From positions 1 through 34,931 of the forward strand of contig JAICIM010000004.1 of NCBI GenBank assembly GCA_025928885.1: a stretch of DNA of 34,931 nt. The letters run 5' to 3'. Below the pieces are notes generated by a model. That model saw only the letters and a list, made by a program, of their open reading frames with translations. It searched no databases and was not told where the DNA came from. This document shows positions 21,310 to 34,931 of the stretch, one piece after another. The position numbers were made by a program, and so were the translations under genes. This stretch comes from Ktedonobacteraceae bacterium (GTDB taxonomy: Bacteria; Chloroflexota; Ktedonobacteria; Ktedonobacterales; Ktedonobacteraceae). The stretch's first letter is position 1; each line of letters opens with the position of its first letter.

Positions 21310-21720
21310 TCAGGAAGATTGATCAGATATTTTGGGTAAGAGATGAGCGTTGGTGGCGGCTGCTGCAACCTCATCCAGGCTGTTGCCGATCGAGGCTTCG
21401 ACGGCAGCAATCACCGCGCCTTCCACCAGAGGTGCGGGACTGATGATCACGCGGCGTGGTTGCTCTGCGGTAAAGGTTTCGACCGCTATTTCGGTTGTCA
21501 TCACCGCGCTGCCCAGATCGAGCAGCACTAGAATACCGTCAGGGCCATCTACCTGATGCAGCGCCTCCAACACCTTCTCCATCGTCGTACCAAGCGAACC
21601 ATCAGCCGTTCCACCAGCAGGGGCAATCGCAACCTTGCCCTGAGCCATCTGCCCCGCTAACTCCGCCACCCCTTCGGCCAGCTTCGCGCTATGTGAGACA
21701 ATGACTAAACCGACAGCCAT
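21310..21720 (-). CDS. dhaM: DhaM-like PTS phosphoryl carrier (EIIA-Man domain)
   Basis: A 136-residue single-domain DhaM. It starts VGLVIVSHSAKLAEGVAEL, where His10 is the phosphorylated histidine (SHS motif), and continues ILVLLDLGSAVMTTEIAVE and RRVIISPAPLVEGAVIAAVEA, family-typical text. In the PEP-dependent dihydroxyacetone kinase system DhaM passes phosphate from HPr to DhaL-bound ADP. It is 30 bases downstream of dhaL on the same strand. The length matches single-domain DhaM of Gram-positive type, without the HPr/EI extensions seen in enterobacteria. Confidence 0.92.
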   Translation of the reverse strand: MAVGLVIVSHSAKLAEGVAELAGQMAQGKVAIAPAGGTADGSLGTTMEKVLEALHQVDGPDGILVLLDLGSAVMTTEIAVETFTAEQPRRVIISPAPLVEGAVIAAVEASIGNSLDEVAAAATNAHLLPKISDQSS

Positions 21721-21750: not shown

Positions 21751-22380
21751 CTATCCACAACTATCTGCCAACGTTTTCAGTATCAACCAGCTAGAGGTTG
21801 CCCCCGGATCTTGATGGCCGATGCTGCGCTCCCCCAGATAACTGGCACGCCCTTTGGTAGCCAGCAGCGGAATCGTCGCCTCCGCCCCCTGTTGAGCCGC
21901 CTCGCTGCTCTGTTTGAGGAGTTGGGGAAGATCCAGGCCAGCGCTTTCGGCTTTTCTGGCCGCATCCAGGGCTGGCTGCAAAGCATCAAGCATCGTTTTC
22001 TCGCCCGGTTGTGCCTTGCCGCGTGCCTTGACGCCCTCCACAAAAGCCGTCAACAGGGCAACCACGTCGGCTGCGGATAAGACCTGTTTTCCGGCAGTTG
22101 CGATACCTGCACGCAAGAAAGCAGTGCCATATAATGGTCCGCTGGCCCCGCCAACCGTGGAGACGAGCGTTGAGCCAACGGTCTTGAGGATTGCGCCAAT
22201 ATCTGCATTGGTGAGCGTCGCTAATTTTGCGGACACGGCCTTGAAACCACGATCCATATTCGAGCCATGATCCGCATCGCCAATCGCGGCATCAAGCTGC
22301 GTTAAATACTCGCGCTTCTCTTGCAGCACCTGAGCCAGCTGTTGCAACCAGCGCAAAACATCTTCCGTCGTCATAGACAT
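21751..22380 (-). CDS. dhaL: DhaL-like dihydroxyacetone kinase nucleotide-binding subunit
   Basis: A 209-residue DhaL. The ADP/Mg-binding loop is LDAAIGDADHGSNMDRGF with D30, D35 and D37; the glycine-rich GGASGPLYGTAFLRAG and the KGRASYLGERSIGHQDPGA segments are also diagnostic. DhaL holds a permanently bound ADP that DhaM phosphorylates, and transfers phosphate to substrate bound on DhaK. ATG 22380 is chosen since GGAGG lies 6 bases upstream; a TTG at 22392 is part of that site. No dhaK gene is in the window. It is the first gene of the probable dhaL-dhaM-cupin-dehydrogenase operon. Confidence 0.93.
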   Translation of the reverse strand: MSMTTEDVLRWLQQLAQVLQEKREYLTQLDAAIGDADHGSNMDRGFKAVSAKLATLTNADIGAILKTVGSTLVSTVGGASGPLYGTAFLRAGIATAGKQVLSAADVVALLTAFVEGVKARGKAQPGEKTMLDALQPALDAARKAESAGLDLPQLLKQSSEAAQQGAEATIPLLATKGRASYLGERSIGHQDPGATSSWLILKTLADSCG

Positions 22381-22933
22381 GGCAACCTCCAATCCAGCAA
22401 AACCTGCGACTTACATCTGCTGCTCTTCTCTCCTCAAGCTTCAACGCTCCCCTCATCAGACGGCCTCTGGAGAACAAAGAGTTATGGGTAGTATAGCACA
22501 CAGAAACGGTTGCCCTGATGCCCTCAACAACGATATACTGCAAAGAAATAAAGCAATGCCTGAGAGTGCTTGTTCCTCTACACAAAGATACCAGCTTCTA
22601 ACAAAACATAGTCTTGACCGGGAAGGAGAAGAAAAGCAACGATTCGCTCTCCCAAATCGCCTGTACGGCTGGCATACCAGCAAAAGGTTCCATATTATGG
22701 GTACATACTATGACCAATAGGCTATTCTCTCCTCACGACCACCTCTATGCGATATCATAAAGGTATATTTTTACAAGAGACTGAGAAGTCATTTTACGAC
22801 ATTTCTATGCCAGAACCTCACTACATACACAGAGCAATACAGCATCAATTGTCTATACAGGCGTTCTAAACTGTAGTATAGTACAGGTTGGGCTTTATTA
22901 CATACGATATTTTCTGTAGAGGTAAAAAAGAGT
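22381..22933. other. Intergenic region between divergent dhaL and first kinase gene
   Basis: About 550 bases. No credible gene is visible: short open frames here lack ribosome binding sites and family resemblance. The right half is AT-rich and presumably holds the kinase promoter (several TATA-like hexamers, none well spaced from a -35); the left half should hold the dhaL leader. Confidence 0.5.
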
Positions 22934-25162
22934 ATGAGAGATGGCGAAGCCGCACAACGCACAGCCGCCAGAAGCCTCGGTCGCTACCAGATTATCAGGC
23001 GCATCGGCAGAGGAGGGATGGGGGATGTATGGCTCTGCGATGATCCACGCCTGCATCGTCAGGTCGCCATTAAAACCTTGCCAGCTCAGAGCCAGCAGGA
23101 TCGCGAATTCGCTCAGCGCTTCGAACGAGAGGCTCAGGCATCAGCAGCGCTCGGTCATCCACACATTCTCCCTATCTATGACTATGGCGAACAACCCACC
23201 ACCAACGGGCAGATCATTACCTATATCGTCATGCCTTATATTTCAGGTGGCTCCCTGACAGAACGCATCGTCGCCTATCAATCGCAACACATGCTCATGC
23301 CGCCCCAGGAGGCGATCGCATATCTCTTACAGGCAGCCGAGGCGACTGATTACGCCCATGCGCAGGGAATTGTTCATCGCGATATTAAGCCCGGCAATAT
23401 GCTCTTGCGCGACGAGCGCTGGCTGTTGCTCACCGATTTTGGCATTGCTCAGATCCTCTCTAACGCGGAAAATGTGACGCAAACCGGCGCTGGCATCGGT
23501 ACCCCTGAATATATGGCCCCGGAGCAAGCGGAAGGCAAGGCAGAAGCCGCCAGCGATCTCTATAGCCTGGCCGTGCTGGCCTACTACCTTCTCGCAGGCC
23601 ACCTCCCATTCAATGCCGAAACAAGCTATGCGACAACCATCCAGCACATGACTATGCCACCTCCACCACCGCGCCAATTCAATCCAGCCCTCCCACCGGC
23701 ATTTGAGGCGGCGCTGCTGCGCGGACTCGCCAAACATCCCGCAGAGCGCCCGGCCTCGGCACGCGTATTTGTGGCCTCCTTGCAACAGGCATGTGCTGGA
23801 ACTCCCTTTGAGGCATTTATGGCCTCCGCAGCACACGCTCCTGTTTCCGCCGGGCAACCCAATACCTTCTCAACGATCACACAACCAACCATACCCGAAC
23901 TCAACAAGCAACCAGAGACGGATCAGAACACCCCTGCCCACCAGCCAGGAAACAGTCCTTTTTCTCGGCGCCAACTCATCATGGGTGGCAGCGCCGCGCT
24001 GCTGGTCGCGGGAGGACTGGGTACATGGGCAGTTGTCGCAAAATTTCACCAGACCACAACTCAGAAGGCACAAACCAGCTCGCCAGCACCAACGCCCAAT
24101 CCCAATGGCCCTGATCTGATCCTCCAGGGACATCTCAAGCCAGCCAGCTCGCTTGCCTGGTCGCCAAAAAAAAATGTGCTGGCCTCTATAGCCGATCAGG
24201 ATGATTTACTGCTCTGGGATATCACCAGACAACAAAGCGGCTCGCCTGACCCAATAGCGAGGCGCAAAGCGCGTAAAGGCAGTGCGATGCTGCTCTCCTG
24301 GTCGCCCGATGGCAGTATGCTGGCACTGGCAAACACGGGAGAAGAGCCGATCAGCCAGGACAACGCCTCGATCGATTTCTACACCAGCGATGTCAGCAAA
24401 TTCACTCCAGGTTTTACTAGCTATGCGGCGGGCGAGGGGACCTCTACAGTCTCAGGGATGTGCTGGGCCAACAAAACCACGCTGGTGACAGTGACACGTT
24501 CGCCCCTCAACAGCAACGATTCTAACCATTTTCGTCTGTGGGCAATGGATATCACGCAACCCAATCAACCCATCAAAGCAATTCCAATCGCAGGTTCGCT
24601 GGGAGACGGCTTCACCCTGAACACGCCTCCACAACAACTGGCAACATCGCCGGATGGAGCATTTATTGCGATCTCGTTATACAATACAATCGCCATCGGC
24701 AAGGTGAGTCTGGCTGCCAATACGGTGCAATGGCAACAAACCTCCACGCTCCAATTTGAGAAGAACGCATTTGCACAATCCACGGGTGTCTTCTGGGAAC
24801 CAGATGGGCGCAACGTCGGAACGTTTTATCAATCCAACGTCTCAAGCATCTATCTCTGGAACTGGCAAAACAACCAGAGCACGCCGATCAAAGAATTCGA
24901 TACCGACGCGAAGCTGATCACAATGGCGTGGTCGCCCGCACCGCAACATCCGCTGTTTGCAACGGCCTCTATGGATGGAAAAGTGCAGATCTGGAATCCG
25001 AACAAAGGCACCACTCCGGTGGGAACGCTCAATGGTGGCGATATCAGCAATAAAAAGGTCACGTCCCTGGCCTGGTCGTCTGATGGACAATGGCTGGCCG
25101 CCGGATATGACGACAATGACACGAGCATCCTTGTCTGGAACATACAGAGACGAGGATTTTGA
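22934..25162 (+). CDS. Transmembrane Ser/Thr kinase with WD40 propeller (paralog 1)
   Basis: A 742-residue protein. Residues 17-290 are a PknB-type kinase: IGRGGMGDVW (P-loop), Lys47 in VAIK, HRDIKPGN (148-155), DFG (168-170) and APEQ (195-198). All catalytic residues are present. A Pro/Gln/Thr-rich linker runs to about 342. Residues 344-368 read SRRQLIMGGSAALLVAGG plus more hydrophobic residues, a membrane helix preceded by a twin-arginine-like block (R345-R346). Residues 395-742 are WD40 repeats (for example VTSLAWSSDGQWLAAGYDDN). The propeller should be outside and the kinase inside. GAGG lies 10 bases before ATG. It is followed by two paralogs; substrates and the sensed signal are unknown. 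Confidence 0.92.
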   Translation: MRDGEAAQRTAARSLGRYQIIRRIGRGGMGDVWLCDDPRLHRQVAIKTLPAQSQQDREFAQRFEREAQASAALGHPHILPIYDYGEQPTTNGQIITYIVMPYISGGSLTERIVAYQSQHMLMPPQEAIAYLLQAAEATDYAHAQGIVHRDIKPGNMLLRDERWLLLTDFGIAQILSNAENVTQTGAGIGTPEYMAPEQAEGKAEAASDLYSLAVLAYYLLAGHLPFNAETSYATTIQHMTMPPPPPRQFNPALPPAFEAALLRGLAKHPAERPASARVFVASLQQACAGTPFEAFMASAAHAPVSAGQPNTFSTITQPTIPELNKQPETDQNTPAHQPGNSPFSRRQLIMGGSAALLVAGGLGTWAVVAKFHQTTTQKAQTSSPAPTPNPNGPDLILQGHLKPASSLAWSPKKNVLASIADQDDLLLWDITRQQSGSPDPIARRKARKGSAMLLSWSPDGSMLALANTGEEPISQDNASIDFYTSDVSKFTPGFTSYAAGEGTSTVSGMCWANKTTLVTVTRSPLNSNDSNHFRLWAMDITQPNQPIKAIPIAGSLGDGFTLNTPPQQLATSPDGAFIAISLYNTIAIGKVSLAANTVQWQQTSTLQFEKNAFAQSTGVFWEPDGRNVGTFYQSNVSSIYLWNWQNNQSTPIKEFDTDAKLITMAWSPAPQHPLFATASMDGKVQIWNPNKGTTPVGTLNGGDISNKKVTSLAWSSDGQWLAAGYDDNDTSILVWNIQRRGF

Positions 25163-25250
25163 GTGATGCAGGCTTGCCAGAAATGATATGCTGAACAGGA
25201 ATGAGCATACGGAGAGAATGGATAAACAGAAAAAACGCAGGAAATAGACG

Positions 25251-27506
25251 ATGAACGACGGTGACATTATGACAACAACCAGCTTAGGACGCTATCGTTT
25301 GCTCAAGCAAATCGGCAAGGGTGGCATGGGTGAAGTCTGGTTGGGCGAGGACCCGCGCTTACATCGTCAGGTCGCCATCAAAACTCTGCCAGTACAGAAG
25401 CAACAGAATAATGAGTTTCTGCTTCGCTTCGAGCGGGAGGCGCGTGCCGCCGCCGCGCTCAACCACCCCCACATTCTCCCTATTCACGATTTCGGCAAAC
25501 AGAACTTGCCCGACGATGAAGTCATCGCCTACATCGTTATGCCCTACATCACCGGGGGAACGCTCGCCGATCGCATCGACACACACACAGCCAATCAAAC
25601 GCTGATGCCACAACAGGAAGCCCTGGCATATCTTGCACAGGCGGCGCAAGCGATTGATTATGCACACAAACACAGTATTATCCACCGCGACATCAAACCG
25701 GCCAATATGCTCTTGCGCCACGATAATTGGCTGCTGCTCGGGGACTTCGGCATTGCGCGTCTCCTCTCCAGTACTGACAACCTCACGCGCACGGGTACTG
25801 GCACCGGCACCCCTGAATATATCGCGCCAGAACAGGCACAGGGGAGAGCAGAGGCCGCCAGCGATATCTACAGCTTAGCCATTCTTGCCTACTACCTTTT
25901 TACTGGAAAATTACCCTTTAAAGCGATCTCCCGCTATGGCACGATAGTACAGCATATCACTTCCTCGCCGCCACGGCCACGACAGATCAACCCGGCCCTC
26001 ACGCCTGAACAGGAGCTAGCGTTACTCCACGGTCTGACCAAACAGCCAGGGGAACGGCCATATTCGGCCAGAGAGCTGGTGGAAGAGCTACAGCAAGCAG
26101 CGGGCTACACATCGTTGCCCGGCCCTTCTACGAGTGCGCTCTCGCAACCAATCATTCCAGCACACAATCAGCAACCCATCACCGGACAACCTCACCAACC
26201 TCCGCTCAACCAGAGCGATGTCTTTCCAGAGGCAGCACATACATCCCAAATACGACAAGGAACATTCCATACCAGAGATGAAGCCCCGTCTCACCTACGA
26301 GACCCCCACACAACAAAAGCTAAATATGTGTCCCAAGCACAAGCAATTGCACCTGTTGAAGCAAGCAAACCAGTGCCAGCACAGATTTCACGGCGCTCTC
26401 TCTTCATTGGAGGAGGCGCAGCCCTTGCCCTCTTAGCGGGAGGCGTGAGTACATGGGCTTTTCTCAGCAACAGACAAAAACCTGAGCAAACTGGGCAACC
26501 CACCACAACCACTGCTGATCCCAATGGGCCGGATCTGATTCTGCGTGGGCATACAAAACCTGTCACCTCGCTGGCATGGTCTGCTCAATCACATCTCGCA
26601 TCAGCGGGCGAAGATGGCACGGTCCTGCTATGGACGCCACAACAGGGTACTCGACCTGCTGCCAGCGCCCGACAAACATTTCATACCACCAACCCCTTAC
26701 TCCTCTCCTGGTCTCCTGATGGGCAATGGTTGGCAATTGGCAATACAGGGCAGGGAACGTCGGCCTCGCTTGAGCTATATAGCAGCGACCTGCACACAAC
26801 GGCCCCTGGCTATAACACAGGAATATCTGTTCCCGGCACAACAGCCATCGCTGGCCTCGCCTGGCAGAATCGCTACCTTACAGCCGTAGGAGAGAAGCCG
26901 CTCCATCTGCATATCTGGAATACCCAGGAGCCGCAACGGCAGTTCGCTCCAATCGCGCTTCCCGGCACCCTTGCCACAACGCTATCGACCAGATCACCGC
27001 TACTTCTAGCCTCGCCTGACAGCACCCTGCTAGCGCTGGCTGAGGCTGAGGGGGTCATTACAGGACAGATCAAGCTCTCTGGCACAATGGCGCAATGGCA
27101 GCAGGTATTAAGCCCGGTCAAGCTCGATGGACACATCAAGGCTATAAGCTGGATGTCCAGCGGAACCGTCATGGGCGCACTCACCACCACAAACGAGCGG
27201 ACATTCTCCCTGGCACTCTGGACGCGGCAAAAACTGGAGCAGGACCTGCTCCCCACCGATGCAATACTCACCACGCTGGCATGGTCGCCTGCTGCAACAA
27301 GCGATCTCCTCGCCACTGGCAGCAAAGATGGACAGGTATTGCTCTGGAAATACTCAGGCAGCAATATTCCCGCACACCTGGATAGCAATTTGCAGGCAGA
27401 GGTCATCAGCCTGGCATGGTCGCCCGATGGGCAATGGCTGGCCGCTGGCTTTAACGATAAAGATGCAAGTATTCTGCTTTGGAACATACAGGGACGAGGA
27501 TTCTAA
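25251..27506 (+). CDS. Transmembrane Ser/Thr kinase with WD40 propeller (paralog 2)
   Basis: A 751-residue protein of the same plan as paralog 1. Kinase at 14-285: IGKGGMGEVW, Lys44, HRDIKPAN (145-152), DFG (165-167), APEQ (192-195). The linker is longer (about 286-379). The membrane block is SRRSLFIGGGAALALLAGG (380-398, twin Arg at 381-382), ending near Asn407. WD40 repeats cover about 428-751, and the final repeat (VISLAWSPDGQWLAAGF to GRGF) is almost identical to that of paralog 1, evidence of tandem duplication. AGGAAA is about 9 bases before ATG. It starts 88 bases after paralog 1 and ends 5 bases before paralog 3, so the three may share a transcript. Confidence 0.92.
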   Translation: MNDGDIMTTTSLGRYRLLKQIGKGGMGEVWLGEDPRLHRQVAIKTLPVQKQQNNEFLLRFEREARAAAALNHPHILPIHDFGKQNLPDDEVIAYIVMPYITGGTLADRIDTHTANQTLMPQQEALAYLAQAAQAIDYAHKHSIIHRDIKPANMLLRHDNWLLLGDFGIARLLSSTDNLTRTGTGTGTPEYIAPEQAQGRAEAASDIYSLAILAYYLFTGKLPFKAISRYGTIVQHITSSPPRPRQINPALTPEQELALLHGLTKQPGERPYSARELVEELQQAAGYTSLPGPSTSALSQPIIPAHNQQPITGQPHQPPLNQSDVFPEAAHTSQIRQGTFHTRDEAPSHLRDPHTTKAKYVSQAQAIAPVEASKPVPAQISRRSLFIGGGAALALLAGGVSTWAFLSNRQKPEQTGQPTTTTADPNGPDLILRGHTKPVTSLAWSAQSHLASAGEDGTVLLWTPQQGTRPAASARQTFHTTNPLLLSWSPDGQWLAIGNTGQGTSASLELYSSDLHTTAPGYNTGISVPGTTAIAGLAWQNRYLTAVGEKPLHLHIWNTQEPQRQFAPIALPGTLATTLSTRSPLLLASPDSTLLALAEAEGVITGQIKLSGTMAQWQQVLSPVKLDGHIKAISWMSSGTVMGALTTTNERTFSLALWTRQKLEQDLLPTDAILTTLAWSPAATSDLLATGSKDGQVLLWKYSGSNIPAHLDSNLQAEVISLAWSPDGQWLAAGFNDKDASILLWNIQGRGF

Positions 27507-27511
27507 AAATT

Positions 27512-29989
27512 ATGCTGACAAATCAAATGATAGATTGGCAAGGGGGAATGCTCGGGCGCTATCGCATGATACGCCTGCTGGGACGCGGCGGCATGGGCGA
27601 GGTCTGGTTGGCGGAAGATACTGAGCTACGCCGCCAGATCGCCGCCAAACTCTTGCCGTCCGTACTGGCATCTGACGAAAGCTATCTCCACGCATTTGAG
27701 TACGAGGCACGCACCGCCGCCGCGCTGGAACATCCCCATATCCTGCCCATTCACGACTTCGGAGAACAACACATCGCCGATGATGAAGTCGTCACCTACC
27801 TGATTACGCCCTATATGGCTGGTGGCTCTCTGCGCGACCTCTTACGCGCAACCACACACGTCCTTCCTCCACACGAGAGCCTGAACTATCTCAAGCAGGC
27901 CGCTCAGGCCATAGACTACGCACATAGCCAGAATGTCCTTCACCGCGACATCAAACCGGCCAATATGCTGCTTCAGGAAGGATGGCTCTTCCTCGCCGAT
28001 TTCGGCCTCGCTAAATTACTGAGCAGCGAGACGCAGCGCACCCGCACACATACAGGCTCCGGGACTCCCGAATATATGGCTCCTGAACAGGCGCAAGGCC
28101 ATGCCACTCCTGCCAGCGATCGCTACAGCCTGGCAATGACAGCCTACCAGATGTTAACGGGCGCCCTCCCCTTCAGAGGAGATAGCCCCTATGAAGTGCT
28201 CATCAAACAGATTAAAACGGCTCCACTCGCACCCACGCAATGGAATCCAACGCTCCCTCTGGCTGTCGAAGAGCTTCTCTTGCAGGGATTGGCAAAACGG
28301 CCCGAAGATCGGCTCTCAACATGTGTTGCTTTTGTCAATGCATTGGAACAGGCATTCGCTCCGTCACAACAAGCCATGTTAGACGATGCAGAGGTCACGC
28401 TCCCGGCCCCCTGGAACAAGCGCCTGCACAAAATAGTATTAACATCTCCATTACAGCAGCCGCTGACACCAACATTCACCACTCAGGACGCCTCGCTCTC
28501 GCAAACACCAACACAACCCTCTCTGTCGTCTCAACTTTCCCTACGGCGAGAACAAACAGTAACAACCCCCTCACATATCGGCTATCCCGTTACCCCCGAC
28601 CCTATCGTTGAGCCACAGCAAAACACTTACTCACCCACGCTTCACTATCCCCCTGTCCAGGATGCGCCAACACGGCAGGAGGGAACGCCTCCTCCGCAAG
28701 AACCAAAACGCAAGATTGGTCGCCGCGAACTGGTCATAGGGGGCAGTACCGCCGCTGCTCTCGCTGTTGCGGGAGGGGCCTCGTTCTTGATCTGGCAACA
28801 TACCAGTTCAACACCGGCATTGCTAGAGAGAGCTATTCCCGGCCCCCAAAAGCTCATGCCAGGGGTGCCACTCTTAAATATTACTCGCCATTTGCGCACC
28901 GTCTATAATGCCGTCTGGGACCCAACGGGACGCTATCTCGCCACGGCTGGAGAGGATCAAACGGTCATGCTCTGGGACGTGGGTAGCTATCTGGCAAAAT
29001 CGCCAAAAGAGGTCCAGACGCTCACAAAACCTGTACGCCGTTGGAGGCTGCCAGGCACAATTTTCAGCAATGCGCTGAGCTGGTCTTATGACGGACGCTA
29101 CCTCGTTGCAACGCCAGTCACAGGCGCAAATCAGATATTTCTCCTGGATGTTTTCGGCAAAGCCGACGATCCCATTATTTATAAAGACGGCAGCAAAACC
29201 GATGATATTGGCGGTCCCGATTTTTTATATAACGCCTGGTCGCCCACAACGAGTACATTTGCCGCCGCCGTCTCCAATACACAGAATGTGCTGCTCTGGC
29301 AACTCAAGCAACCAAACACGCCGATCAAAACGCTCTATAACGATCAGGGACCGCGCAAAGTCGATGGGGTAGCAATCTCAGTCGGCAATCTGGCCTGGTC
29401 AGCGGATGGAATGCTACTGGCGACGATGACCAATAACTTCAATCTGGCTATCTGGGACGTGAAAACAGGCAAGGTGAAATACTACATCAATGTCCCCGAC
29501 GCGCCCCTCACGCTACCTCCTGGCACACATGCCATTTTCGTGCTTCGCGATGCAATGCAATGGTCGCCGGCAGACAACCGCCTGCTCCTTGCCACCAATG
29601 CCAATATCGTGAACGTCTGGGACGTGCAGCAGGCAAAAAAACCGCGCTGGCAGCTTGGCACCAATGACAAAGACGCGCTGACGCCACCGCCCAACAATGA
29701 TACAGGGCTGGGCTTCAAATGGAATCCCAACATCACTGGCGTTAGCTGGTCGCCCAATGGACGCTATCTGACGGGCGGCTACGGGCGGAGCCACAAGATC
29801 CATATCTGGGATTTGCAGGAGAAAAAACCTGTCGTCTCCAAAGGGATACAAATGCCTAGCCTCCTCTTTGGAGAGTACAATGGACATGGCGACACGGTGA
29901 CCGATACGAGGTGGTCGCCGAATGGGCGTTATATCGCCACCAGCTCATTTGATACTACCGTGATCGTCTGGAAGGTTGATGAAGCCTAA
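27512..29989 (+). CDS. Transmembrane Ser/Thr kinase with WD40 propeller (paralog 3)
   Basis: An 825-residue, more diverged third copy. Kinase at 15-283: LGRGGMGEVW, Lys46 (IAAK), HRDIKPAN (144-151), DFG (163-165), APEQ (190-193). The linker is the longest (about 284-402) and rich in Thr, Pro and Gln. The membrane block is GRRELVIGGSTAAALAVAG (403-421, twin Arg 404-405). The WD40 propeller covers about 445-825 with longer inserts. The start at 27512 leaves 5 bases after the stop of paralog 2; ACGAGGA lies about 12 bases upstream, inside that gene. A longer reading from 27479 would overlap paralog 2 and is less likely. Co-translation with paralog 2 is probable. Confidence 0.92.
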   Translation: MLTNQMIDWQGGMLGRYRMIRLLGRGGMGEVWLAEDTELRRQIAAKLLPSVLASDESYLHAFEYEARTAAALEHPHILPIHDFGEQHIADDEVVTYLITPYMAGGSLRDLLRATTHVLPPHESLNYLKQAAQAIDYAHSQNVLHRDIKPANMLLQEGWLFLADFGLAKLLSSETQRTRTHTGSGTPEYMAPEQAQGHATPASDRYSLAMTAYQMLTGALPFRGDSPYEVLIKQIKTAPLAPTQWNPTLPLAVEELLLQGLAKRPEDRLSTCVAFVNALEQAFAPSQQAMLDDAEVTLPAPWNKRLHKIVLTSPLQQPLTPTFTTQDASLSQTPTQPSLSSQLSLRREQTVTTPSHIGYPVTPDPIVEPQQNTYSPTLHYPPVQDAPTRQEGTPPPQEPKRKIGRRELVIGGSTAAALAVAGGASFLIWQHTSSTPALLERAIPGPQKLMPGVPLLNITRHLRTVYNAVWDPTGRYLATAGEDQTVMLWDVGSYLAKSPKEVQTLTKPVRRWRLPGTIFSNALSWSYDGRYLVATPVTGANQIFLLDVFGKADDPIIYKDGSKTDDIGGPDFLYNAWSPTTSTFAAAVSNTQNVLLWQLKQPNTPIKTLYNDQGPRKVDGVAISVGNLAWSADGMLLATMTNNFNLAIWDVKTGKVKYYINVPDAPLTLPPGTHAIFVLRDAMQWSPADNRLLLATNANIVNVWDVQQAKKPRWQLGTNDKDALTPPPNNDTGLGFKWNPNITGVSWSPNGRYLTGGYGRSHKIHIWDLQEKKPVVSKGIQMPSLLFGEYNGHGDTVTDTRWSPNGRYIATSSFDTTVIVWKVDEA

Positions 29990-30063
29990 CACAGAGGGCC
30001 AGCAGGGCATATGCTATAATGGCGCATGGCCGGAAAGATCATCGTCTTTTGAAAGGAACTGCT

Positions 30064-31008
30064 ATGCGCGTTGTCTCTCTTCTGGCAAGCGCGACAGAAA
30101 TGATTGCCGCGCTCGGTTGCCTCGATCAGCTCGTAGGGCGCTCTCACGAATGCGACTATCCATCTGAAGTGCTGCAATTGCCGCTGGTCAGCACTGTACA
30201 AATCGATGTCAACGCAACCAGCGAGCAGATTGATGCGCAGATCAAGCAGCTTGCACGCACAAAGGATGCCGTCCGGGACAATGCGCTCAAGGCGCTGAGC
30301 ATCTACGCCATCGACACCAACCTCTTGCAACAGTTGCAGCCAGACATCATCTTTACACAAACACAGTGCGAGGTCTGTGCAGTTAGCGAGCGTGACGTAC
30401 TCCAGGCATTGCAGCAAGTTGCGAGCATTCAACCGCGTATCGTCTCTCTCGCCCCCTATTGTCTCAGCGATGTCTGGGTAGACCTGATACGTGTTGGAGA
30501 GGCGCTGGAGCGCAAAGAGCAGGCACAACAACTGGCGAACAAGTATCAGGAAAGGCTGAACCTGTTGGCGCAGACGACGGCTACATTGGGAGCCAAACCG
30601 CGCGTCGCCATCCTGGAATGGCTTGATCCACTGATGGCGGCGGGAAACTGGACGCCAGAGTTGCTCAACTATGCTGGCGGCTCGACGGTCTTTGGCAGGG
30701 TCGGAGAGCATTCGCCCTGGCTCACCTGGGAAGAATTGAGAGCCGCCAATCCCGACGTGCTGATACTTTCCCCCTGTGGCTTCGCGCTGGAACGCACCAT
30801 GCAAGATATCTCCCTCCTGCAACACCACCCACTCTGGCCGGAGCTACAAGCGGTACAACAGCAGCGTGTCTACGCCATCGACGGAAATTATTACCTGAAC
30901 CGCTCTGGTCCGCGACTGGTAGAATCTGCTGAGCTGCTGGCGCACGTGCTGTGGGGAGAACGTCTGACCATCAATGTGGATGAAACGGCCTGGAGAAGCA
31001 TCATATAA
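30064..31008 (+). CDS. BtuF-like cobalamin-binding protein without signal peptide
   Basis: A 314-residue member of the periplasmic-binding-protein-like (BtuF/FecB fold) family. Family text: MRVVSLLASATEMIAALGCLDQ, RSHECDYP, IFTQTQCEVCAVS with two conserved cysteines, and VAILEWLDPLMAAGNWTPELL. Unlike true BtuF, it begins right at the folded domain, with no signal peptide or lipobox, so it should be cytosolic. This cytosolic branch is widespread and usually labelled cobalamin-binding; its role is not settled. ATG 30064 is preferred for AAAGGA 7 bases upstream; a 15-codon extension from 30019 is unsupported. It starts 74 bases after the third kinase and could be an operon tail. Confidence 0.87.
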   Translation: MRVVSLLASATEMIAALGCLDQLVGRSHECDYPSEVLQLPLVSTVQIDVNATSEQIDAQIKQLARTKDAVRDNALKALSIYAIDTNLLQQLQPDIIFTQTQCEVCAVSERDVLQALQQVASIQPRIVSLAPYCLSDVWVDLIRVGEALERKEQAQQLANKYQERLNLLAQTTATLGAKPRVAILEWLDPLMAAGNWTPELLNYAGGSTVFGRVGEHSPWLTWEELRAANPDVLILSPCGFALERTMQDISLLQHHPLWPELQAVQQQRVYAIDGNYYLNRSGPRLVESAELLAHVLWGERLTINVDETAWRSII

Positions 31009-31996: not shown

Positions 31997-32572
31997 TTAC
32001 ACCTCCTCTTCATCCTCAGATTCGGGGCCAGATGTATCGACGACGGCCTCATCATCGATCAACCCCTTGATAGGATCAATATACATCTTCCGGCGGATAA
32101 GGTCAACCTGTTTCACGATGGCCTTGACGGCGGGGATAAGGTATTGCTGCTTATCTGGTCCCTTCACAACATACACGTCGTTGCCACCGGTCGTAATAAT
32201 ATCAACAATAACGCCAATGACGCGATCCGCAAGCGTTGCGACCTGCAAACCCAGGATATCATGTTGATAATAGGAGTCGGGAGGCAACTCGGCCAGTTGA
32301 TCGAGGGGGATACACAAATCCTGATTGCGCAGTGGCTCGGCGGCGGTTGCATCCCCAATGCCGCGCAGTTTGAGCAGGAGCACATCGCCTTTATACGGGC
32401 GCACCCCTTCAATAACATAGCGCCGATGCTCGGAACCGACATACACGGCTTCGAGATTGGCAAAGCGGTCGGGAATATCAGAAAGAGATTTGACTTTGAA
32501 TTCGCCGCGCAAACCAAAAAGGGCCACTATTTTACCGATAGTAGCCCATTCTGTCTCGTTTTGCATTGGCAT
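31997..32572 (-). CDS. rimM: Ribosome maturation factor RimM
   Basis: A 191-residue RimM, which binds S19 and assists 16S rRNA maturation in the 30S head. Family text: ATIGKIVALFGLRGEFKVKS at the N-terminus, then VEGVRPYKGDVLLLK-like (here IEGVRPYKGDVLLLKLRG), and the PRC-barrel part DILGLQVATLADRVIGVIVDI, NDVYVVKGPDKQQYLIPAVKAIV. The Glu-rich tail (PESEDEEEV) is an ordinary extension. GAAGGC is 9 bases before ATG. It follows khpA by 54 bases within the S16 operon; the usual trmD and rplS are not found in the next 1 kb. Confidence 0.93.
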   Translation of the reverse strand: MPMQNETEWATIGKIVALFGLRGEFKVKSLSDIPDRFANLEAVYVGSEHRRYVIEGVRPYKGDVLLLKLRGIGDATAAEPLRNQDLCIPLDQLAELPPDSYYQHDILGLQVATLADRVIGVIVDIITTGGNDVYVVKGPDKQQYLIPAVKAIVKQVDLIRRKMYIDPIKGLIDDEAVVDTSGPESEDEEEV

Positions 32573-32878: not shown

Positions 32879-33160
32879 CTACTGAGCGTCAGGAGCAGCA
32901 GTTGTCTGAGAGGAACGCTCGACGATGCCAGCACGCTGGAGCAGCGAAAGCACCGACTCGGTAGGCTGAGCACCTTTTTTGAGCCAGTCGAGAGCCTTTT
33001 CCTTGTCGATATTGATCGCGGAAGGCTCGACACGTGGGTTATACCACCCGATATTTTCAATGATACGACCATCGCGTGGAGAACGGGCATCTGCCACCAC
33101 AACACGATAGCTAGGGGCTTTCTTCATCCCCGTACGTTTTAAGCGAATCTTAACGGCCAT
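32879..33160 (-). CDS. rpsP: 30S ribosomal protein S16
   Basis: A 93-residue S16. It opens [20 protein letters not shown] and has [21 protein letters not shown] and [19 protein letters not shown], all typical. The start is ATG 33160; the in-frame extension to 33238 is unrelated to S16. GAGGTGAGAG precedes the ATG by about 11 bases. It is the first gene of rpsP-khpA-rimM, driven by a strong promoter at 33300-33328. Confidence 0.96.
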
Positions 33161-33299
33161 GCTTTTTCTACTCTCACCTCTTCCCCACTCAATGGGGTTG
33201 TTTGCACTTTCAGTTTTATACTTGCAGCAGCGCCACATGCGAGAGGTAGCGCCAACACCAGATATCTACCTGATAGTGATCCTGAACTTCGGCTAGACT

Positions 33300-33485: not shown

Positions 33486-34931
33486 ATGCGCCGAACAAAA
33501 ATCGTCTGTACCATCGGACCGGCGACCAGCAGTGAGGAACGTATCGAAGCGCTCATACGAGCAGGCATGAACGTTGCGCGGCTCAATTTCTCACATGGCA
33601 AGCAGGAAGAGCACGCCACCGTCATAACACGCATACGGGAGATCTCCGGTCGCCTCGGCTGCCCCATCGCCATCCTGCAAGACCTCCAGGGACCAAAGAT
33701 CCGCGTAGGATCGCTTCAGGACGGGAAACCAATTCAACTGGTCGATCAAACAGAAGTGATTATTACCAGCCGTCCGGTCGCGGGCAATTCGCAGACCATC
33801 CCCACCACCTACAAACAACTCCCCCAGGATGTAAAACCCGGCGACCGCATCCTCTTAGACGACGGCCTTATGGAGCTACGCGTTCTCAGTGCCGACGAGA
33901 GCGATGTCCGTTGTCAGGTTATTCACGGCGGACTGCTCAAAGAACATAAGGGCATTAACCTGCCCGGAGTAGCGGTCAGCACCCCGGCCTTAACGGAAAA
34001 GGATCGCGACGACTTACACTTCGGGATCACACATGGGGTCGATTACATCGCGCTCAGTTTTGTGCGTAGACCAGAAGACGTGATAGCAGCCCGCGAACTC
34101 GTCCACGAATATCAGGTCGAGCATCAGGGCAAAAACAGGCAGGCAGACATTCCTCTGATCGTCAAACTGGAGAAGCCAGAGGCAGTCGCACGTCTGGACG
34201 ACATTCTCAAAGTCGCGGACGGGATCATGGTAGCGCGAGGAGACCTGGGAGTAGAGATGTCGCTGGAAAAAGTGCCGCTGATCCAGAAGCGCGTGATCGC
34301 TCGTTGCAATCAGCTAGGACTGCCAGTCATCACAGCCACACAAATGCTGGAATCGATGATTATCAATTCCCGTCCTACTCGCGCCGAAGTCACAGATATA
34401 TCGAACGCCATTTTGGACGGAACCGATGCCATCATGCTGAGCGCTGAAACGGCCACTGGAGCCTATCCTATCGAGGCGGTCCAGATGATGGTAAGAATCG
34501 CTCTGGAGACCGAAGCGGGCGGGAGAACGGCTCAACAGCCAGAGTGCCAGCAACTCACGCAAACACGTGCCGTGAGCCATGCCGCCCGAGCGTTGGCGGA
34601 AGAGGCAAGCGTCAAAGCCATCATCGTCCTGACGCGTTCGGGAAATTCTGCTAACTTGATCTCCAAAGATCGCCCCCGCACACCGATCATCGCCTATACT
34701 CCTTCTGAACACGTCTATCGCCAGCTGACCCTCTGGTGGGGAGTCTGGCCATATTGCATTGAATTGAAAGGGACGACGGAAGACCTGATAGAGGCGGTGG
34801 AGCAGCGCTTGCTGGAAGATAAAATCGTGCTACATGGCGAAAATGTCGTCATTATGGGAGGCATGCCGGTAGCGAGTCGAGCACGCACGAATTTTGTGAA
34901 GCTGCATCATGTTGATCTCAATCATCGCTAA
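33486..34931 (+). CDS. pyk: Pyruvate kinase
   Basis: A complete 481-residue pyruvate kinase, ending with TAA at the last base of the window. It converts phosphoenolpyruvate and ADP to pyruvate and ATP, in the cytosol. Key parts: MRRTKIVCTIGPATSS and NVARLNFSHG at the N-terminus; a B domain (about 70-170); the active-site segment IVKLEKPEAV with its catalytic Lys; VARGDLGVE; and VITATQMLESMI. The C-terminal domain (about 355-481, with ALAEEASVKAIIVLTRSG) is the allosteric part; there is no extra PEP-utiliser-like domain. AGAGGA is 9 bases before ATG. It is divergent from the S16 operon. Confidence 0.96.
   Translation: MRRTKIVCTIGPATSSEERIEALIRAGMNVARLNFSHGKQEEHATVITRIREISGRLGCPIAILQDLQGPKIRVGSLQDGKPIQLVDQTEVIITSRPVAGNSQTIPTTYKQLPQDVKPGDRILLDDGLMELRVLSADESDVRCQVIHGGLLKEHKGINLPGVAVSTPALTEKDRDDLHFGITHGVDYIALSFVRRPEDVIAARELVHEYQVEHQGKNRQADIPLIVKLEKPEAVARLDDILKVADGIMVARGDLGVEMSLEKVPLIQKRVIARCNQLGLPVITATQMLESMIINSRPTRAEVTDISNAILDGTDAIMLSAETATGAYPIEAVQMMVRIALETEAGGRTAQQPECQQLTQTRAVSHAARALAEEASVKAIIVLTRSGNSANLISKDRPRTPIIAYTPSEHVYRQLTLWWGVWPYCIELKGTTEDLIEAVEQRLLEDKIVLHGENVVIMGGMPVASRARTNFVKLHHVDLNHR

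Follow-up and report, generated by a model that had tools for sequence, protein, structure and literature searches.

A tandem array of kinase-WD40 genes in a Ktedonobacteraceae bacterium carries a conserved Tat-like motif between kinase and propeller

The subject of this analysis is an array of three genes in the genome of a Ktedonobacteraceae bacterium (assembly GCA_025928885.1), lying within a stretch of 34,931 nt of contig JAICIM010000004.1 that is referred to here as the window. The genes K1, K2, and K3 (Table 1) share one domain order: kinase, Pro/Thr/Gln-rich linker, one short hydrophobic segment, and WD40 propeller. An earlier note on this DNA had described three complete kinases lying head to tail, and this was confirmed by the ORFs (22934-25162, 25251-27506, and 27479-29989) and by an alignment in which the Lys, HRDxKxxN, DFG, and APE residues were invariant among the three. 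Their Pkinase matches (E-values of 7.1e-43, 3.4e-43, and 6.7e-44 for K1, K2, and K3, respectively) were above the curated cut-off, and by this domain and the Lys, HRD, DFG, and APE residues all are Hanks-type Ser/Thr kinases. The C-terminal domains were identified as WD40 propellers by PF00400 matches above the curated cut-off in all three, by AlphaFold2 models of K1 (24038-25159, mean pLDDT 86.4) and of the post-anchor region of K3 (mean pLDDT 88.2), and by a PDB match of K1. The ORF of K3 is open from a TTG at 27479, with an ATG at 27512 (about 825 codons). The ATG, five bases past the K2 stop codon, is probably the start, and with so short a gap K2 and K3 are probably co-transcribed, while K1 and K2 are separated by 88 bases. 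Promoter-like sites (8, compared to 5.4, sd 2.5) and terminator-like sites (13, compared to 8.3, sd 3.5) were near the numbers in shuffled sequence. A gene for a periplasmic-binding protein (PF01497, window 30019-31008) follows immediately after the array on the same strand, and an ORF at 472-1674, which resembles TnpB/OrfB by its zinc-finger end, is presumably associated with a transposon of the IS200/IS605 type.

Table 1. Genes and features of the array and its conserved flanks (window coordinates)
Feature	Coordinates	Strand	Length, basis, or remark
EIIA-man domain gene, DhaM-like	21310-21720	-	PF03610; conserved flank
DAK2 domain gene, DhaL-like	21751-22392	-	PF02734; conserved flank
K1, type A kinase-WD40 receptor gene	22934-25162	+	742 aa; ORF, Pfam, A clade in both trees
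K1 kinase domain	22976-23803	+	PF00069, alignment
K1 internal Tat-like signal anchor, F-S-R-R-Q-L-I-M-G-G...	23954-24037	+	Arg-Arg at 23966-23971
K1 WD40 propeller, predicted outside the membrane	24113-25159	+	PF00400, AlphaFold2
K1 last blade, conserved across type A	25025-25159	+	
K2, type A kinase-WD40 receptor gene	25251-27506	+	751 aa; ORF, Pfam, both trees
K2 internal Tat-like signal anchor, I-S-R-R-S-L-F-I-G-G...	26382-26465	+	Arg-Arg at 26391-26396
K2 WD40 propeller	26526-27503	+	PF00400
K2 last blade	27378-27503	+	
K3, type B kinase-WD40 receptor gene	27512-29989	+	ORF, Pfam, B clade
K3 internal Tat-like signal anchor, I-G-R-R-E-L-V-I-G-G...	28712-28792	+	Arg-Arg at 28721-28726
K3 region after anchor, with WD40 propeller	28793-29986	+	PF00400, AlphaFold2
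rimM	31997-32572	-	PF01782; conserved flank
rpsP	32879-33238	-	PF00886; conserved flank
Presumed pyruvate kinase gene	33486-34931	+	conserved flank

A family-wide search recovered K1-like matches at E ≤ 1e-85 in 12 of 29 genomes (the window's own included) and K3-like matches likewise in 12 of 29, while 17 of the 29 had no match at E ≤ 1e-85. A scan of genome contigs with K1 gave a single match, to a distant kinase locus in Nannocystis. Nineteen stretches were retrieved round the best matches (20 kb each, or limited by the contig), and 17 of these, from 11 related genomes, have at least two kinases head to tail, a count that omits L027 (own genome, one kinase cut by the contig end) and L037 (no kinase found). 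Absence of the array from all relatives, one of the outcomes that the earlier note had named as contrary evidence, was therefore not seen. Trees of the kinases and of the propellers of 45 long proteins gave the same split, into 25 of type A and 20 of type B with 100% support; the types are two old clades, and both trees place K1 and K2 in type A, and K3 in type B. In 16 of the 17 stretches a type-B gene comes immediately after one of type A (the types being assigned from the trees or, for the cut genes in L025 and L026, by similarity), and the final array gene of L024, which is shortened, was given no type. This pairing suggests that the two types may work together. The layouts observed were A-B, A-B-A, A-A-B, and A-B-A-B, that of the window, A-A-B, being found also in L028 and L029. 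The dhaL/dhaM-like flank lay on the corresponding side of the array in L020, L024, L028, and L029, and the flank of rimM, rpsP, and the presumed pyruvate kinase gene in L020, L024, and L028; both flanks are common to these last three, L029 has the dha side alone, and L026 has in common only genes farther out on that side. Some genomes carry further A-B copies elsewhere. The shared layouts and flanks indicate that the array is an inherited locus, and a chance arrangement is excluded, as relatives have arrays of the same gene types, in some cases next to the same flanking genes. In the orthologous array of one relative (L024:7856-13141, genome G007) the kinase ORFs of the first and last genes are shortened, by decay or assembly error.

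The domains of these proteins have diverged to very different degrees. Between K1 and K2, identity was 64% in the kinase (176/276), 25% in the linker (12/48), and 38% in the propeller (122/321), and the ratio of propeller to kinase tree distances had a median of 2.41 in type A (above 1 in 120 of 120 pairs) and of 1.90 in type B (78 of 78 pairs). The rate of propeller evolution is about double that of the kinase, and equal branch lengths of the two domains were not seen, which supports the proposal in the earlier note of a duplication followed by faster divergence of the external domain. A recent local duplication giving rise to K1 and K2 is disfavoured, since the kinase most similar to each belongs to another genome (for K1, L022, 72%; for K2, L019 of a third genome, 67%), the forks that separate the two having only 84-86% support.

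The last propeller repeats of K1 and K2 had been called almost the same, which overstates their likeness, as 26 of 42 positions (62%) are identical within the final 45 residues. The RxGF end attributed to both was indeed seen in both, but it is not private to them: type-A proteins of four other genomes have similar tails (WKMQGRTF, WKTQGRGF, WKIEGRGI, and WKTQGRGY), and the remaining type-A proteins lack them. Among 19 type-A kinases the last blade had a mean pairwise identity of 0.45, compared to 0.57 for the kinase, mostly 0.17-0.27 for the remaining propeller (0.34 at its start), and 0.17 for the linker. Since type-A relatives in general conserve the blade, its likeness in K1 and K2 is sufficiently accounted for by constraint, structural or functional, on this closing blade, and the gene conversion offered beside it in the earlier note is not needed. 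Recent conversion between the two blades would fit the lower dS of the last blade (0.76, compared to 2.09 for the whole propeller) and the shared codons at identical residues (12/23, compared to 24/86 in the rest of the propeller, p = 0.044), but there is no such excess relative to the kinase (72/170, Fisher p = 0.38), and the K2 blade is as similar to that of L029, from another genus, as to that of K1 (0.62 in both cases), so that we regard this event as highly improbable.

The feature that most distinguishes these proteins lies between kinase and propeller. In all 45 long array kinases, from 12 genomes, the hydrophobic segment is immediately preceded by Arg-Arg within a Tat-like sequence (S-R-R-x-L/F-L), and the segment itself is weak and rich in Gly and Ala. 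Passages of PMC7317946 give the Tat consensus as S-R-R-x-F-L-K, and describe the substitution of Lys for Arg as poorly tolerated in Tat and neutral in Sec. For a wider comparison, 161 kinases with complete C-ends were collected, nearly all from related genomes, after leaving out C-truncated kinases and ORFs sharing the last 200 residues. They were labelled WD40 if they had at least three repeat matches or a propeller-profile match (including L025 13741, with its propeller cut). Membrane segments were called by home-made Kyte-Doolittle rules; earlier versions mis-picked the segment in L024, L030, L054, L132, and L133, and one call (L162) lay inside the propeller and was dropped by hand before counting. 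A strict rule (Arg-Arg no more than 8 residues from the segment, hydrophobic residues at +3 and +4) was satisfied by 56 of the 59 WD40 kinases in which a segment was called, compared to 5 of the 54 membrane kinases that have no WD40; the window's own genome gave 6/6 and 2/36, and outside arrays 12 of 15 WD40 kinases with a segment complied. The motif was absent from all three own-genome WD40 kinases judged by eye to have no segment. Within the set of 56 (L162 and the three exceptions having been left out beforehand), Ser occupied -1 in 33, Leu +4 in 40, and Gly +6 in 47, with hydrophobic residues at +3 and at +4 in every case.

Two further properties of the segment and its surroundings agree with a Tat signal. 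Lys and Arg were used equally in the 25 residues upstream of the segment in WD40 kinases (84:84), and none of 60 had only KK, KR, or RK at the motif, compared to 7 of 54 others. The median Kyte-Doolittle value over 15 residues was 1.91 for the 56 WD40 kinases with Arg-Arg and 2.90 for 46 single-segment controls (p = 9e-14); own-genome proteins matching Tat profiles had a median of 1.75 (11 of the 14 yielded a value), among them the internal signal of L189 and a probable transporter, L198, that is not a Tat protein. Twin arginines in an S-R-R-x-F-L-like context followed by a weakly hydrophobic segment are the marks of a Tat substrate, and the array kinases have both. Positive charges after the segment, considered as a Sec-avoidance feature, were set aside, as they differed little (1.71 in WD40 kinases, 1.41 in the others). 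TatC was found in all 41 relatives searched (40 over the cut-off), and TatA-like matches in the window's own genome.

Profile searches showed an enrichment in the same direction, though a weak one. They covered 45 of the 59 WD40 segments (the near-duplicates of L029, L034, L035, and L036 and the plasmid sequences L170 and L171 were left out) and, as controls, the 46 single-segment kinases of the 54 without WD40, and matches were accepted at E ≤ 1, which are weak scores, the best being 1.6e-6. Considering the best 25 of 31, 42, and 53 families, the WD40 segments matched TIGR02811 in 17 cases, TIGR01409 in 12, and PF10399 and PF10518 in 11 each, whereas the controls matched TIGR01409 once and the others in no case among the matches listed. 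Two non-Tat profiles also matched WD40 segments, CwsA (8/45) and CU044_5270 (7/45), and no Tat model was present among the profile matches of the K2 segment itself.

Kinase-like proteins with other sensor domains show the same kind of anchor. On contig C667 of the window's own genome, L078:1142-3067 (minus strand) specifies a pseudokinase, with HGTLK and GFG replacing HRDxK and DFG, followed by a Tat-like anchor and a Rieske 2Fe-2S domain (PF00355), and it is one of the two non-WD40 kinases of that genome within the strict rule. L078-like matches at E ≤ 1e-60 were found in 21 of 41 genomes, and some of them lack a Rieske domain; the Rieske motif was present at 16 of 20 returned pseudokinase loci. 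All 16 have Arg-Arg no more than 10 residues from a weak segment (14 satisfy the strict rule), while the four Rieske-less sisters, all from one genus, have none, and carry S-R-K-H or S-R-K-R before strong segments (3.07-3.17). The pseudokinase-Rieske protein may be a redox-sensing receptor, and Rieske domains are classical Tat cargo according to passages of PMC7317946. A Rieske-type motif, C-T-H...C-P-C-H, was also recognised by eye in L189 (own genome, contig C199), in which about 135 residues precede an internal twin arginine. Five non-WD40 kinases in all satisfy the strict rule, two of them with strong anchors, and one of the five (L150:2103-4730, G017) has a DUF346 repeat behind its Tat-like anchor. 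Two distinct Streptomyces kinases found on plasmids (L185 and L201) have a T/S-R-R motif before weak segments, and their sensors we take to be PQQ-type propellers, as in AfsK. Eleven plasmid kinases had been retrieved as outside controls, nine of which entered the analysis (L177 and L178 were left out, and L179 yielded no parsed entry). Most of the others were judged by eye to be soluble repeat proteins, short, or multi-pass, and were unusable as controls. A Ser/Thr kinase on contig C14 of the own genome (L076:728-3502), with a periplasmic-binding-protein/ANF receptor domain, has a strong anchor and no Tat-like motif.

Taking these groups together, among 135 kinases the strict rule was satisfied by 73 of the 78 whose sensor is WD40, Rieske, DUF346, or PQQ, compared to 3 of 57 others, the 'folded sensor' label of the DUF346 and PQQ kinases having been set after the data were seen. 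As many of the proteins are related, raw p-values overstate the link. Trait counts over six independent pairs on well-supported branches of FastTree trees gave 4.6 in agreement and 0.0 opposed (median p 0.0625), and the WD40 label alone gave four pairs (median p 0.25). A general rule that a propeller means Tat was rejected, because the WD40 kinases L171 (Nostoc), L170 (Chlorohelix), and L133 (4903; same order) and a mycobacterial PknD-type propeller kinase (L223) do not follow it. The argument for Tat draws instead on a combination: conservation of Arg over Lys, fit to the motif, weakness of the segment, profile matches, and the Rieske cargo.

From this combination of sequence features, we consider it likely that the propellers are exported in folded form by Tat, from the internal signal anchor of a one-pass receptor kinase. 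The propeller would fold in the cytoplasm, TatC would recognise the S-R-R-x-L/F-L motif that lies ahead of it, and the folded domain would cross the membrane through the twin-arginine translocase, with the weak hydrophobic segment remaining as membrane anchor. The kinase would stay inside, since the N-side of a Tat signal remains cytoplasmic upon insertion, and the propeller would be displayed outside, where the binding of ligands, or the pairing of propellers, may control kinase activity. The three may be receptors that respond to different signals, as the earlier note proposed.

Single-pass receptors usually use Sec, and the segment might be an ordinary Sec/SRP signal anchor whose arginines merely obey the positive-inside rule, the array then being a plain set of kinase-WD40 receptors. 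Propeller kinases elsewhere that are without a Tat-like motif (L170, L171, and L223) and the small difference in charge after the segment would agree with this. However, Lys never substitutes for Arg at the motif, even though it is equally common nearby, the membrane kinases that lack WD40 in these genomes are mostly without the motif and have stronger segments, Tat profiles match the WD40 segments more often than the controls, though weakly, and the same signal occurs in the Rieske family; a Sec anchor is thus unlikely, in our judgement. Alternatively, a segment so weakly hydrophobic might not cross the membrane at all, leaving the propeller in the cytoplasm, with Arg-Arg serving for docking, as a processing site, or for something else. 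That 17 of 77 WD40 kinases have no called segment points the same way, a number that includes at least three (L033 7313, L034 7518, and L151) whose segment, with its Arg-Arg, went undetected by the rule. This second alternative is less probable still, since both the position and the sequence of the motif match the Tat consensus, and Rieske domains lie behind the same kind of segment.

The array kinases differ in several respects from the systems they resemble. PkwA of Thermomonospora curvata also has a kinase followed by a WD40 propeller, and its WD40 domain (5yzv) was the best PDB match to the K1 propeller model (TM-score 0.87 by target), being matched as well by the type-B propeller profile. 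Unlike PkwA as described, the array kinases have one membrane segment, a Tat-like motif, and tandem A-B arrays; the main text of PMC6113231, on PkwA, uses neither 'membrane' nor 'twin'. PASTA kinases (PknB/Stk1) likewise have a kinase inside, one membrane segment, and a sensor outside, and NF033483 was the best NCBIfam match for K1, K2, and K3, but at 300, 283, and 257 bits, compared to a cut-off of 450, and no PASTA family was present among the Pfam matches listed for the three. The one PASTA kinase examined (L182) has a strong anchor and no Arg-Arg. The Streptomyces kinases L185 and L201 have a similar motif before a weak segment, but their propeller type and phylum are different.

A closer parallel is found in polytopic Tat proteins such as the actinobacterial Rieske protein Sco2149, in which, as described in parts of PMC5449189, a twin arginine directly precedes a last, weak segment that exports a folded domain. 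In such dual Sec-Tat proteins Sec-inserted segments come first and cofactor domains lie outside, as set out in the same parts. In contrast, the array kinases begin with a soluble kinase, have no segment before the motif, and have no known cofactor. Their kinase domains start at residues 15, 12, and 25, which leaves no room for an N-terminal membrane segment, and none was called between kinase and motif in K1, K2, or K3. Only kinase and propeller families were present among the Pfam matches listed for the three, whereas an outside cofactor domain does occur in the sister Rieske pseudokinases. The screen in PMC5449189 was searched by hand for cofactor domains, according to its account of the procedure, and the word 'kinase' does not occur in its main text.

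The literature titles and beginnings of abstracts included none linking a Tat signal with a Ser/Thr kinase, among the matches listed. In passages of PMC10924467 the only mention of a kinase concerns a neighbouring gene, and PMC10653824 contains both 'twin-arginine' and 'PknB'. In passages of PMC5587647 many of the WD40 genes found in Cyanobacteria and Planctomycetes are said to include a kinase domain as well, and PMC1262709 reports, for Streptomyces and Deinococcus, kinases that contain PQQ repeats, the words 'twin' and 'Rieske' not occurring there.

The usual view places Tat signals at the N-terminus or, in proteins that Sec has threaded, at the last segment, and WD40 propellers are usually cytoplasmic. 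An internal Tat signal between kinase and sensor would be an unusual receptor design. A signal preceded by some 300-460 residues of cytoplasmic kinase and linker would widen the range of Tat cargo, standard predictors could miss a group of receptors, and the array would offer a clean system for studying how Tat deals with signals whose N-side bears a folded domain. It is an evenly balanced question, in our estimate, whether kinases with sensors that fold before export (WD40, DUF346, and PQQ propellers, and Rieske domains) form a class of Tat cargo, defined by a soluble kinase-fold domain ahead of an internal Tat anchor and spread over at least two phyla. If they do, Tat proofreading would decide which receptors reach the surface, and exchanging the sensor domain would exchange the type of anchor. 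Tat export would also explain how bacteria can have WD40 propellers outside the cell.
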